Source: Polaromonas sp. JS666 (GTDB lineage Bacteria > Pseudomonadota > Gammaproteobacteria > Burkholderiales > Burkholderiaceae_C). Taken from it: DNA of 64,000 nt. The notes under the pieces are model-generated. The model was given only the letters and a program-made list of their open reading frames with translations. It was not told the origin of the DNA and did not search any database. The stretch lies in assembly GCF_000013865.1 (NCBI RefSeq), contig NC_007948.1, positions 1,612,001 through 1,676,000 of the forward strand, written 5' to 3'. Of the stretch, positions 29,098 to 58,969 are shown piece after piece. Each line of letters opens with the position of its first letter. Position 1 is the first letter of the stretch. Position numbers and translations under genes: made by a program.

Positions 29098-30129
29098 TTA
29101 ACCCAGGAAATCCTCGATCCGCCTGGCCAGCTGCTCGGGCTGGTCATGGTGCAGCATGTGGCCCGCATCCTGAACCACGGCGACCTGCGCTTGGGGTATC
29201 TGCTTGAGCCTTTCGTGGTATTGCGCCAGGGTGTAGGAGCCCTTCCACCAGGTCGCCAGGGAGTCGTCAGACGCCTCAACGGACAGCGTGGGCGCGCTGA
29301 TCTGCCGGTAGATCTCCAGCGCTTCGTCCAGCCGGTACAGGTGCGCGCTGGTGATCTTGTGCGCGGCATCGCCCAGAATTCGCCATTTGCCGCTGGCGTC
29401 GGGGCGGGCCCAATGGTTGGCCAGCCAGTGGGCCTTGTCGGACGAGAGCCGGGGGTTGGTCCTCATGAGCCGGCGCGCCACGCCGTCCACGTCGTTGTAG
29501 GCCTTCAGGTCGAGTTCGCCCCGGTGCAGGCTTTTGAGCTCGTCCATCCATTTCGCATAGCGCGCGGGGGCCTGGCTGGGTTTGCTGGCCGGCAGGCCAA
29601 ACCCTTCGAGGTTGACGAGCTTGCGAATGCGTGCCGGCCGCACGCCGGCGTAGAGCATGGCTACATTGCCGCCCATGCTGTGCCCCACCAGGTCCACCGC
29701 CTGGCCGGCCGCATAGTGGTCCAGCAGGAAGTCCAGGTCGGCCAGGTAGTCGGCGAACCAATAGGTGTCAGCGGCCCCCACGCTTTTCACTTCGTGTAAT
29801 GCGCTTCCCCCCGAGGGGGCTAATTTTCCTTGGGGCGGCCCGGCGGAAAATTGGGCGTCCCCCACGTGGCGCTGCTCGGCGCTGCAAGTCAGGCCAAAGC
29901 CGCGCCAGTCAGGCGCAATAATCGTGCGGCCCTGCGCAAACGCGTCTGACAAGGCATCGACCATGAACTGCCAGGAGGCCGCGACGTCCATCCAGCCATG
30001 CACCAGCACCAGGGGCGGGCGGGTGGAGGCGGAGGCGGGGCCAGCTGCGGCCGGCCAGACCTGGACGTGGTAGCTGAGCCCGCGTATAGGGACAAACTCG
30101 CTGCGGGAAGAACGTTTTTCTTTGTACAT
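29098..30129 (-). CDS. Alpha/beta hydrolase with an in-frame repeat insertion
   Basis: This 343-residue hydrolase has the oxyanion HGWMDVAASW, nucleophile GHSMGG and catalytic His in DAGHMLHHDQP. The substrate is unknown. Start ATG 30129 opens MYKEKRSS; a longer open frame upstream overlaps the divergent ligase gene and is rejected. Around residues 90-118 the protein contains GPPQGKLAPSGGSALHEVKS and adjoining residues, the direct translation of the dispersed chromosomal repeat found elsewhere in this window. It sits between two conserved parts, so it is probably a tolerated surface-loop insertion. Confidence 0.85.
   Translation of the reverse strand: MYKEKRSSRSEFVPIRGLSYHVQVWPAAAGPASASTRPPLVLVHGWMDVAASWQFMVDALSDAFAQGRTIIAPDWRGFGLTCSAEQRHVGDAQFSAGPPQGKLAPSGGSALHEVKSVGAADTYWFADYLADLDFLLDHYAAGQAVDLVGHSMGGNVAMLYAGVRPARIRKLVNLEGFGLPASKPSQAPARYAKWMDELKSLHRGELDLKAYNDVDGVARRLMRTNPRLSSDKAHWLANHWARPDASGKWRILGDAAHKITSAHLYRLDEALEIYRQISAPTLSVEASDDSLATWWKGSYTLAQYHERLKQIPQAQVAVVQDAGHMLHHDQPEQLARRIEDFLG
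29774..29858. repeat. Dispersed repeat inside the hydrolase gene
   Basis: The plus strand begins GGCCCCCACGCTTTTCACTT, continues through a CCCCCCGAGGGGGC palindrome and ends with an AATTTTCC / GGAAAATT hairpin. The same subtype lies before purF (46151-46232). Here it keeps the reading frame open. Confidence 0.75.
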
Positions 30130-35505: not shown

Positions 35506-36261
35506 CTAGTACCGCTTGTCCAGCGTCATCTGGTTGTTTTCCCGCCTCATCTGAAAGCGCGTCAGAAAACTGTTGCCCAACAGCAGGAAGGGCATGGGTT
35601 CGGGTGTTACCACAGCCGCCACGTCGTACACCTCCACGTCGCCGATGCGTACCGAGTTGAGCTGGATGCGAAAGCCCTGCGTGTTGCCGTTGGCGGTGGA
35701 GATGCGCACCGGCTGCCCGTTCTTGTAGTTGATGCCCGCACGGTCGGCATCGGCGACGCTCATCGCAATACTGGTGGCACCGGTATCAACCATGAATTGC
35801 ACGGCGCGGCCATTGATCTGCCCGGCGGTCATGAAGTGGCCGCCTCCGCTTTCCGTCAGGATGATGCGGGTGCCCCGGCCCGCCGAGGCGCCGCTGCCGC
35901 CCGTGCTCACCGGTGCGTCACCCACCCGCAGGGTGTGGCGTTTGCCGGATTGCTCAATGACGGCCTGGTCGCCTGAGGTGGAAATGACCTTGACCCCCTG
36001 GTGGGTCTCACCCGCCGCCACAGACTTTGGCGTGCTGCCATCAACCACCAGCAGGGCCTTGCTGCCCATCATGCCGGCCAGCGCCACCGACTGGGCATAA
36101 GCCGCGCCGTGCAGCAGTGTGAACGCCGTCAGCAACCCTGCTACAACGGAAATACGCGAGGAGGGCAAAGTGCGCCGCGCCGGGCCGCCCCAAGCAAGCA
36201 CAGCCCCCTTTTCTTGTGAAAGGGGCAGCGCAGTACGCAAAGCGACAAGCGTGGGGGCCAT
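35506..36261 (-). CDS. Retropepsin-like aspartic protease, periplasmic
   Basis: The C-terminal half is a clan AA aspartic protease domain: FMVDTGATSIAMS carries the catalytic Asp, and FLLLGNSFLTRF follows. It would work as a homodimer. A signal peptide (VVAGLLTAFTLLHGAAYA) precedes the mature part. The only good start, ATG 36261, lies within a dispersed repeat copy, so about 30 residues (MAPTLVALRTALPL and so on) upstream of the hydrophobic core come from the repeat. This gives an unusually long n-region, and a start after the repeat is possible. The gene begins two bases downstream of the yajQ stop. Confidence 0.82.
   Translation of the reverse strand: MAPTLVALRTALPLSQEKGAVLAWGGPARRTLPSSRISVVAGLLTAFTLLHGAAYAQSVALAGMMGSKALLVVDGSTPKSVAAGETHQGVKVISTSGDQAVIEQSGKRHTLRVGDAPVSTGGSGASAGRGTRIILTESGGGHFMTAGQINGRAVQFMVDTGATSIAMSVADADRAGINYKNGQPVRISTANGNTQGFRIQLNSVRIGDVEVYDVAAVVTPEPMPFLLLGNSFLTRFQMRRENNQMTLDKRY
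36170..36261. repeat. Dispersed repeat at the protease gene start
   Basis: The copy contains CGCCGGGCCGCCCCAAGCAA, a CCCCTTTTCTTGTGAAAGGGG hairpin in place of the usual CCCCCTCGGGGGG, and ends ACAAGCGTGGGGGCCATG. On the minus strand the final bases read ATGGCCCCCACGCTTGT, providing the start codon. Confidence 0.8.
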
Positions 36262-43187: not shown

Positions 43188-43274
43188 CCGCCGGTCCGGC
43201 TTTGCCGGCCGCAGGCGCCGCCCCCTGCAAGGGGGGAGGACCCTACACGCAGTGAGGGTCAACGGGGGTGTGCC
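43188..43274. repeat. Dispersed repeat, second subtype, before folC
   Basis: CCGGTCCGGCTTTGCCGGCC leads into CCCCCTGCAAGGGGGG-type inverted arms and ends ACACGCAGTGAGGGTC, AACGGGGGTGTGCC. It ends at the first possible folC start codon. Confidence 0.6.
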
Positions 43275-43301
43275 ATGGCTTGCGCGACAATGCGGGCCTG
43301 T

Positions 43302-44780
43302 ATGGAACAACTCAAGACACTGCAAGACTGGCTGGCCCACTGCGAGCGCCTGCACCCCAAAAGCATCGACATGGGGCTGGAGCGGGTGCAGGCCGTGGCC
43401 AGGCGCATGGGGCTGGCGTTTGCCTGCCCCGTCATCACGGTCGCCGGAACCAATGGCAAGGGCTCGACCTGCGCGATGCTCGAAGCCATCCTGCTCGAGG
43501 CGGGCTACCGCACCGGCGTTTACACCTCGCCGCACCTGGTGCATTTTGAAGAACGCTGCAGGGTCCGCGGCGACATCGTCAATGCGACTGATTTGGTCGC
43601 AAACTTTGCCCGTGTTGAAGCGGCCAGGGTCCAGAACGGCGATGAAATCTCGCTGACCTACTTTGAATTCACCACGCTGGCTATCCTGCAGCTGCTGGCC
43701 GATGCGAAGCTGGACGTTGTCATCCTGGAAGTGGGGCTGGGCGGCCGGCTGGACGCTGTCAACATCCTGGACACCGACTGCGCCGTGATCACCAGCATCG
43801 ACCTGGACCACATGGAGTTTCTGGGCAACGACCGCGAGAGCATAGGCCGGGAGAAAGCCGGCATCATGCGCGCCGGCAAGCCGGTGGTGGTGAGCGACCC
43901 GGTGCCGCCGCAAAGCATTCTTGACCATGCCGCCGCACTGGGCGCTGACCTGTGGCGCTTCGGCCAGGACTTCAATTTTTCGGGCGACAAGCAGCAATGG
44001 AGCTGGGTGGGGCGTGCGGACACCGGGCCGCCCCAAGGCAGCACAGCCCCCTCGGGGGGCAGCGCAGTACACGAAGTGACAAGCGTGGGGGCCAAAGTGC
44101 GCCGCGCCGGGCCGCCCCAAGCAAGCACAGCCCCCTCGGGGGGCAGCGCAGCACACGAAGTGGCAAGCGTGGGGGCCAAAACATACCGCAGGTATGCCGG
44201 GCTGGCTTACCCGGCACTGCGCGGCGCCAACCAGCTGGTCAATGCCTCTGGTGTGCTGGCGGCGCTGACGGCCCTGCGCGATCGCCTGCCGGTGACGGCC
44301 CAGGCGGTGCGCAATGGCCTGTCCATGGTCGAGCTGCCAGGGCGTTTCCAGATCGTTCCGGGCCAGCCCACGCTGGTGCTGGACGTGGCGCACAACCCGC
44401 ATTCGGTGGCGGCCCTGGCCGAAAACCTGGACGCCATGGGCTTTTACCCCTGCACCCATGCGGTGTTTGGCGCCATGGCCGACAAGGACCTGGCACCCAT
44501 GCTGGCGCGGGTCGGCCCGCTGATCGATAAATGGTATTTCACTGATTTGCCCACGGCCCGGGCCGCGAGCGGCGAAGAGCTGGCGGCGAAATGGCAGGCG
44601 GTGGAAAGCCGGCCCGACGTGACCGCCACCACGCACAAAGACCCCGAACTGGCGCTGCAGGCCGCCGTGAGGGCTGCAGGGCCCGCTGATAGAATTGTGG
44701 TGTTCGGCTCGTTCTACACGGTGGGCGGTGTTTTGAAGGGCGGGGTGCCGCGCCTCATGGCCCCGCACCTGGCTTCTTGA
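43302..44780 (+). CDS. folC: Folylpolyglutamate/dihydrofolate synthase with a repeat-derived insert
   Basis: FolC adds glutamate to dihydropteroate and to folates. The ATP loop VAGTNGKGSTCAML, the YTSPHLVHFEERCR segment and the C-terminal LDVAHNPHSVAAL are intact. I chose ATG 43302 (MEQLKTLQDWL), where family members begin; ATG 43275 is an alternative inside repeat-flanking DNA. About 56 codons at 44014-44180 are two tandem copies of the dispersed repeat read in frame (APSGGSAVHEVTSVGAK, APSGGSAAHEVASVGAK). Without them the protein would have a normal length of about 436. The reading frame is maintained, so the gene is probably still functional. Confidence 0.93.
   Translation: MEQLKTLQDWLAHCERLHPKSIDMGLERVQAVARRMGLAFACPVITVAGTNGKGSTCAMLEAILLEAGYRTGVYTSPHLVHFEERCRVRGDIVNATDLVANFARVEAARVQNGDEISLTYFEFTTLAILQLLADAKLDVVILEVGLGGRLDAVNILDTDCAVITSIDLDHMEFLGNDRESIGREKAGIMRAGKPVVVSDPVPPQSILDHAAALGADLWRFGQDFNFSGDKQQWSWVGRADTGPPQGSTAPSGGSAVHEVTSVGAKVRRAGPPQASTAPSGGSAAHEVASVGAKTYRRYAGLAYPALRGANQLVNASGVLAALTALRDRLPVTAQAVRNGLSMVELPGRFQIVPGQPTLVLDVAHNPHSVAALAENLDAMGFYPCTHAVFGAMADKDLAPMLARVGPLIDKWYFTDLPTARAASGEELAAKWQAVESRPDVTATTHKDPELALQAAVRAAGPADRIVVFGSFYTVGGVLKGGVPRLMAPHLAS
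44014..44180. repeat. Two tandem dispersed-repeat copies inside folC
   Basis: Copy 1 spans 44014-44096 and copy 2 spans 44097-44180. Each has GGGCCGCCCCAA, a CCCCCTCGGGGGG palindrome, CACGAAGTG and AAGCGTGGGGGCCAAA. The second copy is exactly 84 bases, that is 28 codons. Confidence 0.9.
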
Positions 44781-45658: not shown

Positions 45659-46144
45659 GTGGCGGCTGTTGACTGGATTTTGCTGGCGGTATTGGTCTTC
45701 TCGCTGGTGCTGGGCGCCTGGCGCGGGCTGGTTTATGAGGTTTTGTCGGTACTGGGGTGGGTGGTGGCGTTTTTTGCGGCGCAATGGTTTGCGCCCGAGG
45801 TGGCCGCCCGGTTGCCCATCCAGTCCGCCTCGAATCCGGTGCGCTATGCGGCTGCGTTTGTGCTGGTATTCATTGTTGCGGTGTTTGCGGCCGGTTTGCT
45901 GGCTTTTTTGCTGAAGAAGCTGGTCGAAGCCGTTGGCTTGCGGCCGGTGGACCGCGTGATGGGCGCGGGATTTGGCCTGCTGCGCGGACTGATCCTGCTG
46001 CTGGCCGCCACGGTGGTGATTGACATGACGGGGCTCAAGACCACTGAATGGTGGCGGGAGTCCAGAGGCGCGGCCATGCTGACGGCCACGCTCAAAGGTT
46101 TGCAGCCGGTTCTGCCGGAGAAGTTTGCGAAGTATTTGAAATAG
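45659..46144 (+). CDS. cvpA: CvpA family membrane protein
   Basis: The 161-residue protein has four hydrophobic segments and the CvpA signature VDRVMGAGFGLLRGL. The role is poorly defined; E. coli CvpA is needed for colicin V production and membrane homeostasis. The start is GTG 45659. It lies between dedD and purF as in E. coli, and a dispersed repeat follows it. Confidence 0.92.
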   Translation: MAAVDWILLAVLVFSLVLGAWRGLVYEVLSVLGWVVAFFAAQWFAPEVAARLPIQSASNPVRYAAAFVLVFIVAVFAAGLLAFLLKKLVEAVGLRPVDRVMGAGFGLLRGLILLLAATVVIDMTGLKTTEWWRESRGAAMLTATLKGLQPVLPEKFAKYLK

Positions 46145-46150
46145 AAGTAT

Positions 46151-46232
46151 GACCCCCACGCTTTTCACTTCGTGTGAGGTGCGGCCCCCAAAACGGGCGC
46201 ATTTTCCCCGGGGCGGTCCAGCGGAAAATTTA
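46151..46232. repeat. Dispersed repeat between cvpA and purF
   Basis: CCCCCACGCTTTTCACTTCG at the left and an ATTTTCC / GGAAAAT hairpin at the right match the subtype found in the hydrolase gene (29774-29858). It ends 20 bases before the purF start. Confidence 0.75.
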
Positions 46233-58885: not shown

Positions 58886-58969
58886 CCGGCCGCAGCGCCG
58901 GGCCGCCCCAAGCAAGGCCAGCCCCCTCGGGGGGCAGCGAAGTACACGAAGTGACGAGCGTGGGGGCCA
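58886..58969. repeat. Dispersed repeat between livG and livF
   Basis: GCCGGGCCGCCCCAAGCAAG, a CCCCCTCGGGGGG palindrome and ACACGAAGTGACGAGCGTGG make this a typical first-subtype copy. It fills nearly the whole livG-livF spacer and could affect the relative expression of the two genes through mRNA structure. Confidence 0.85.

Follow-up and report, generated by a model that had tools for sequence, protein, structure and literature searches.

In-frame copies of a dispersed foldback repeat in folC and other protein genes of Polaromonas sp. JS666

The folC locus and its two repeat units

The window analysed here is a stretch of 64,000 nucleotides corresponding to positions 1612001 to 1676000 of contig C1 of Polaromonas sp. 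JS666 (genome G000; 5,898,676 bases, three contigs). The forward-strand ORF at 43275-44780 of the window encodes a protein of 501 amino acids from its ATG start, which profile searches identified as the bifunctional dihydrofolate/tetrahydrofolate synthase FolC (NF008101, 418 bits; TIGR01499, 335 bits). A preliminary description of this DNA had reported two tandem, in-frame copies of a dispersed repeat within folC. Both were recovered head to tail on the forward strand at 44014-44181, and the ORF has no stop codon across either of them. Unit 1 (44014-44097) and unit 2 (44098-44181) scored 93.6 and 104.3 bits, respectively, with a covariance model of the repeat, R1, which placed them at 44013-44094 and 44096-44178. 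Two 74-nt cores (44023-44096 and 44107-44180) are spaced by 84 nt and share 95% identity. Unit 2 is exactly 28 codons long, as had been described; unit 1, which had not been regarded as exact, also measures 84 nt or 28 codons.

In the whole genome a single gene exceeded the family cut-off. This ruled out a folC paralogue elsewhere, and the possibility raised in the preliminary description that the gene is duplicated fails. An antisense ORF of 739 amino acids over folC was set aside as a by-product of GC-rich coding DNA. Just upstream of folC, at 43196-43270, lies a distinct GC-rich stretch with a weak R1 match (14.9 bits, E 0.096), which shares an ACACG-AGTG hairpin with the repeat and is perhaps a distant relative of the family.

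At the insert, the TIGR01499 alignment of FolC is broken between profile positions 214 and 222. Mapping on a FolC structure had been proposed as a check, and an AlphaFold2 model was obtained from 41 sequences (mean pLDDT 71.5). Over about residues 251-300 the pLDDT is only 24-31, and this segment lies between strands 242-247 and 304-310. According to the model, the insertion site is the turn of a beta-hairpin and the insert is predicted to be disordered.

A FolC search was performed in 87 genomes of the genus, at least three of which (G038, G056, G076) gave no proper FolC match, while some gave one part of the protein. Among the matches listed, the alignment entered or crossed the insert solely in G000, G071 and G049; in the other genomes with both FolC parts listed it broke at about residues 247-251 and resumed at 301-305. 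The length of the site was also measured between fixed motifs, a pattern which fitted 78 of 111 sequences. The spacing was 108 nt in 55 of the 78 (empty site, WxWAGRGRRYAG type), 120 nt in 16, and 129 and 156 nt in one each. Two sequences had 192 nt (one copy) and three had 276 nt (two copies), the latter being the window, its own duplicate L111, and L031 (G071). Spacings of 108, 192 and 276 nt imply that each copy adds 84 nt, i.e. 28 codons, and the difference between empty and doubly occupied sites accounts for the approximately 56 additional FolC residues noted earlier.

In a quick folC tree of 77 rows, from which the sparsely filled insert columns had been dropped, insert carriers fell on three separate branches, and the starred branches force three changes. 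The history of the insert is thus more complex than one simple insertion. The first units of JS666 and L031 are best or near-best mutual matches with unusual 5' bases in common, and the second units are not each other's best matches. The insert may go back to one insertion followed by loss or between-species exchange, or to repeated insertion at one site.

Between JS666 and L031, dS and dN were 0.14 and 0.17 in the insert and 0.81 and 0.085 in the rest of folC. Compared with L034 and L113 (both G049), which carry one copy (29 codons), dN/dS was 0.4-0.6 in the insert and 0.11-0.14 in the rest of the gene. Judged by these substitution ratios (0.4-1.2), the insert is nearly unconstrained as protein, and its peptide would be under weak constraint or none; the values below 1 against L034 and L113 count against full neutrality. 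The low dS may have any of three causes: an insert younger than the species split, exchange between copies, or maintenance as nucleic acid.

Structure, copy number and arrangement of the repeat

Thirty genomic copies were fetched, and the 22 of equal length were aligned and used to build R1; the other eight were left out, mostly for indels. The consensus structure tested was drawn by eye and has three hairpins. The first combines a variable outer stem with an inner GGG/CCC stem, the second has a GCCCCC/GGGGGC stem and the third encloses a GAA loop. In unit 2, hairpin 1 occupies 44097-44128 (model columns 2-33), with the variable outer stem formed by 44097-44100 with 44125-44128 and 44104-44105 with 44121-44122, and the inner stem by 44109-44111 with 44115-44117. 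Hairpin 2, the GCCCCC/GGGGGC stem, lies at 44130-44144 (columns 35-49), and hairpin 3, a covarying stem around the GAA loop, at 44151-44164 (columns 56-69), all on the forward strand.

Paired cells made up 95.5% of the alignment vs 84.9% in shuffles, cells with both sides changed numbered 47 vs 14.6, and the covariation score was 0.279 vs 0.098; none of 500 shuffles reached any of these values. When partners were slid by 1-3 columns, the covariation score fell below 0.05. No excess was found in the number of pairs with change on both sides (7 vs 6.0 shuffled, reached by 165 of 500) or of further pair types (14 vs 14.8, reached by 405 of 500). The RNAalifold consensus agreed on hairpins 2 and 3, gave a different outer closing stem and lacked the variable outer stem. 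Single copies folded no better than shuffled sequences (z -0.07 to -0.30). At gathering level, Rfam detected four tRNAs in the window and no family on the repeat; at E<=5 its one match in folC was at chance level and lay outside the repeat. The repeat is a structured element whose hairpins show compensatory changes.

Searching the JS666 genome with blastn located the repeat at 49 places, and R1 gave at least 150 matches at E<=7.3e-5 (150 scored of 5,879 candidates). All 150 scored matches are on C1 and none on the two smaller contigs. Only four of 72,556 plasmid records matched the repeat, in a set from which the organism's own genome was possibly left out. Ten genomes of the genus contained 15-138 R1 matches each at E<=1e-10, and in the wider family a match at E<=1e-8 was present in 181 of 300 genomes and 88 of 115 genera.

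The GC content of the six best copies in the window is 67-76% in four and 60 and 62% in two. A reverse-strand copy at 29772-29853 lies in frame and on the same strand within an alpha/beta-hydrolase ORF (29098-30129, reverse strand) and encodes the peptide QFSAGPPQGKLAPSGGSALHEVKSVGA; this second in-frame insertion in the window obeys the same frame rule as folC (see below). Forward-strand copies at 36169-36260 (91.1 bits) and 58887-58969 (101.9 bits) have flanks that both score as coding, on a single strand and in different frames. In the former, the loop of hairpin 2 is nine bases larger than in the model. A weaker member (46150-46232, reverse strand; 55.1 bits) is situated just after an ORF ending at 46144.

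Tight head-to-tail arrays were found in JS666 (12) and in two further genomes, G036 (12) and G071 (13). The neighbour was the strictly best genomic match of an array copy in 6 of 24, 7 of 28 and 10 of 27 cases, respectively. By this comparison many arrays appear to gather unlike copies while others are local duplications, and their make-up suggests frequent insertion of the element next to a resident copy.

A RAYT transposase was considered as a partner of the element. All five genomes searched encode a Y1 transposase, and G005 has two such genes. No R1 match at E<=10 occurred in 19,995 bases around these six genes, and RAYT was rejected because no element lies beside the one or two Y1 genes per genome; no transposase accompanying the element was found among them. 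One of the Y1 genes (L375, 1413-2260) is flanked by an inverted repeat around TCAGATTCCAATT / AATTGGAATCTGA, which is unlike the folC repeat.

In-frame copies in other genes and the choice of reading frame

A count of repeat copies within genes had been proposed earlier. The repeats of JS666 form 127 clusters, and flanks were obtained for 124. In-gene calls were based on codon-usage scores of the flanks alone and on ORFs read through the element. In-frame, open copies were found in 27 clusters in 26 ORFs, a list that rests on looser flank thresholds than the uniform frame test below and includes six matches of 51.8-59.6 bits. Four more open ORFs were excluded, as their predicted start is downstream of the element. 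Family matches, several scoring below the curated cut-off, were obtained for 24 of the 26 host ORFs: FolC, an RstB-like histidine kinase, ExoIII, MadB ATPase, RecJ, RlmI, XdhA, an alpha/beta hydrolase, GcvP, MoaE, CobQ, a P450-like protein, kynureninase, IcmF, a PhzF-family isomerase, a histidine phosphatase, PriA, TrpE, a LysR regulator, GlnE (at two places), KsgA, AmgK, an MFS protein and SulP. The remaining two gave no family match, and the G036 orthologue of one of them matches glycoside-hydrolase domains.

Family alignments of the host ORFs often stop or start at the edges of the element, as in RecJ (alignment edge at residue 244, element 218-244), TrpE (330; 303-329), MoaE (74; 44-71) and KsgA (152; 127-152). 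For TrpE, the site was empty in 12 of 24 matched genomes, with one aligned segment running to residue 301-304 and the next beginning at 331-333. In seven others the alignment continues through this position, and in G019, G059 and G042 it does so without shortening. The second place in GlnE, which holds a pair of copies, was empty in 19 of 23 matched genomes (break 804-807|860-862).

The reading frames were compared in a uniform test, which required both 150-nt flanks to be coding on the same strand and in the same frame with no stop through the element. Matches below 60 bits were dropped in JS666, and the G036 and G071 lists were limited to E<=1e-12 and E<=1e-14, respectively. In JS666 the test was passed by 19 of 101 clusters. 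The counts were 6 of 95 for G036, where 21 clusters had no flanks, and 5 of 58 for G071, where 19 had none. One of these 30, at 1134466 in JS666, is closely preceded by a stop codon, lies between two genes and was rejected as intergenic. Four others recurred in a second genome, three of them at an identical residue, and were merged, which left 25 independent insertions; the copies of the merged ExoIII pair lie roughly twelve residues from each other and could represent distinct insertions.

In the three genomes, 24 of the 25 insertions follow a rule of one frame per orientation. Copies in the gene's orientation read F0 in 13 of 14 cases (..AGPPQ..APSGGS..HEV.SVGA), and all 11 in the opposite orientation read R2 (APTL....LPPEGA..ARGGP); copies that shift frame near one end, e.g. 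in PriA, were classed by their main part. The pattern was first noticed in JS666 and then checked in G036 and G071, where six of seven new independent events fit it. Among 100 regular-spaced copies outside the in-frame set, F0 was open in 98, F1 in 30, F2 in 92, R0 in 24, R1 in 76 and R2 in 99. Given this openness, the binomial probability is 2.2e-4 for F0 and 4.6e-4 for R2, so stops alone do not explain the choice of frame. The F0 and R2 peptides have a net charge of about +0.4 per 28 residues and contain 46-48% P, G, S and T, whereas those of the other four frames carry +2.5 to +6.8 and in some cases contain cysteine or are more hydrophobic. Since the unused F2 is open in 92 of 100 copies, we interpret the choice as resting on the quality of the peptide. 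Many genes thus carry copies, nearly always in a stop-free sense or antisense frame which gives a neutral peptide rich in P, G, S and T.

The sole exception is an insertion in a COX15/CtaA membrane protein (L288; G036 C1:3882359), which is read in F2 and gives a strongly basic peptide. In a membrane protein such as CtaA, a basic insert may be compatible with the positive-inside rule. Two acyl-CoA ligase orthologues, L250 (G036 C1:4197444) and L340 (G071 C11:129907), have copies near the same site in opposite orientations and in the usual frames. This pair is a case of convergent use of one tolerant loop and was counted as separate events.

Judged by the uniform test, the repeat is depleted from genes. 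The test was passed by 19% of the clusters in JS666 (19 of 101) vs 54% of 2,000 random 84-nt places; the values are 6 of 74 vs 40% in G036 and 5 of 39 vs 46% in G071. In-frame spacing of anchors within the copy occurred in 29 of 34 intragenic vs 103 of 151 other copies (Fisher P 0.058), after 2 intragenic and 74 other copies without anchors had been dropped; this is suggestive of frame-keeping within copies.

Interpretation and comparison with known repeats

We consider the folC feature, with a probability of about 0.8, to be a non-autonomous foldback mobile repeat, very probably the Beta-proteobacterial repeat element (BRE; Hot et al. 2011, PMC3110155), which sits in a beta-hairpin turn of FolC and would be translated as a flexible spacer. 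Translation of the inserts is inferred from the open frames together with the frame choice. A putative enzyme would move the element by recognising its folded form, and insertion would happen in any phase. Gene-breaking insertions and those with basic, cysteine-rich or hydrophobic text would be lost, and the survivors would mark the sites and frames that a protein tolerates. In FolC, the insert would be tolerated and not needed, and the second copy would have arrived by insertion beside the first, not by copying it. These patterns suggest natural selection on mobile DNA according to the peptides that it encodes. More tentatively, the element itself might have been shaped to be harmless when translated either way, with one sense and one antisense frame kept stop-free and bland, and would then act as a genome-wide generator of fixed 28-codon linkers; its basis is that F0 and R2 are stop-free in 98 and 99 of 100 copies outside the in-frame set, and we regard it as possible and rather doubtful.

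That the two folC copies are an ordinary tandem duplication is unlikely, even though the units lie head to tail at 84 nt and are 95% alike over 74 nt, unit 2 is among the best matches of unit 1 in JS666, some arrays consist of near-identical neighbours, and Hot et al. classed BRE loci as VNTR (PMC3110155). Unit 2 is nearer to other genomic copies than to unit 1, the G071 units rank only 46th and 25th as each other's match, and the majority of array copies find their nearest match elsewhere. Action of the element in folC at the RNA or DNA level, as an mRNA stability determinant, processing site or small RNA with the peptide as a by-product, is quite unlikely. Compensatory changes in the hairpins would agree with it, as would the few synonymous changes in the insert (dS 0.14 vs 0.81), which would fit nucleic-acid constraint, and the presence of a BRE in the bprJ1/bprJ2 region of Bordetella (PMC3110155). 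Such a role would, however, leave the frame choice pointless; copies occur in genes in both orientations, the folC insert was found in only three of 87 genus genomes (among the matches listed), and recent arrival or exchange among copies explains the low divergence equally well.

It is very improbable that the insert is kept because 56 extra residues give FolC a useful property: dN about equals dS against L031, most relatives do not show the insert among the matches listed, it is predicted to be disordered, and a like peptide occurs in about 25 unrelated proteins. On the other side, the frame has stayed open in two species with 85% identity over the best FolC segment, and dN/dS is somewhat below 1 against L034 and L113. 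Removal of the element by ribosome skipping or RNA splicing, with a normal protein as the result, would suit the conserved fold and the exact 84-nt unit; it is hardly credible, as the frame would then not matter, whereas two frames account for 24 of the 25 independent insertions, and the folC frame needs no skipping.

With a translated mobile repeat as the preferred reading, an earlier remark on BRE inside coding sequences becomes a measurable process in which mobile DNA enters core proteins of a large-genome bacterium, among them FolC, RecJ, PriA, TrpE, GlnE and KsgA. The rule of one frame per orientation provides a cheap test of real translation and of the peptide text that proteins tolerate, and the inserts mark permissive loops in essential enzymes. 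Annotators should be aware that some two dozen JS666 proteins contain residues derived from the repeat.

Rickettsia palindromic elements (RPE) are dispersed foldback repeats that lie in frame in many protein genes and are apparently translated. The preliminary description had compared the folC insertion to them. An in-frame dispersed repeat was indeed found, much more widely than in folC, with translation predicted from the open frames; the elements share dispersal, foldback structure and in-frame positions in many apparently translated genes, and the folC repeat likewise has inserted in frame in conserved protein genes with empty sites in relatives. It differs in its 5.9-Mb host genome, its fixed 84-nt (28-codon) unit and its head-to-tail arrays. 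RPE are a good analogy and not a demonstrated kinship. REP/REPIN elements, which are associated with RAYT transposases, are also chromosomal foldback repeats, and each of the five genomes has a Y1 transposase gene. In contrast to what is expected of REP copies flanking a RAYT gene, no folC-repeat copy lies beside the six Y1 genes, and the units are arranged head to tail, not as inverted pairs.

The closest resemblance is to BRE, a chromosomal element of approximately 90 bp that occurs in tandem across Betaproteobacteria, with many copies in Comamonadaceae; Bordetella copies measure 75-91 bp with a GC content of 64-79% (PMC3110155). Of the genomes treated there, Polaromonas sp. JS666 has the maximum, 29 copies, and BRE are mostly intergenic, though "surprisingly" some lie "entirely within coding sequences" (PMC3110155). 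The folC repeat agrees in unit size and GC richness, chromosomal location, head-to-tail copies, mostly intergenic and partly intragenic positions, broad family spread and abundance in JS666, and judging by these features it is very probably BRE. The repeat family is therefore probably not undescribed, having been published in 2011 (PMC3110155), whereas the preliminary description knew of no such element in this bacterial family. For the intragenic copies, the available text of that paper describes neither structure nor reading frame and names no host genes, and its count of 29 in JS666 stands against at least 150 R1 matches here. While the existence of the element was already known, what is new relative to BRE, within a limited search of the literature, is its extent, the frame rule, the structure and the make-up of its arrays.
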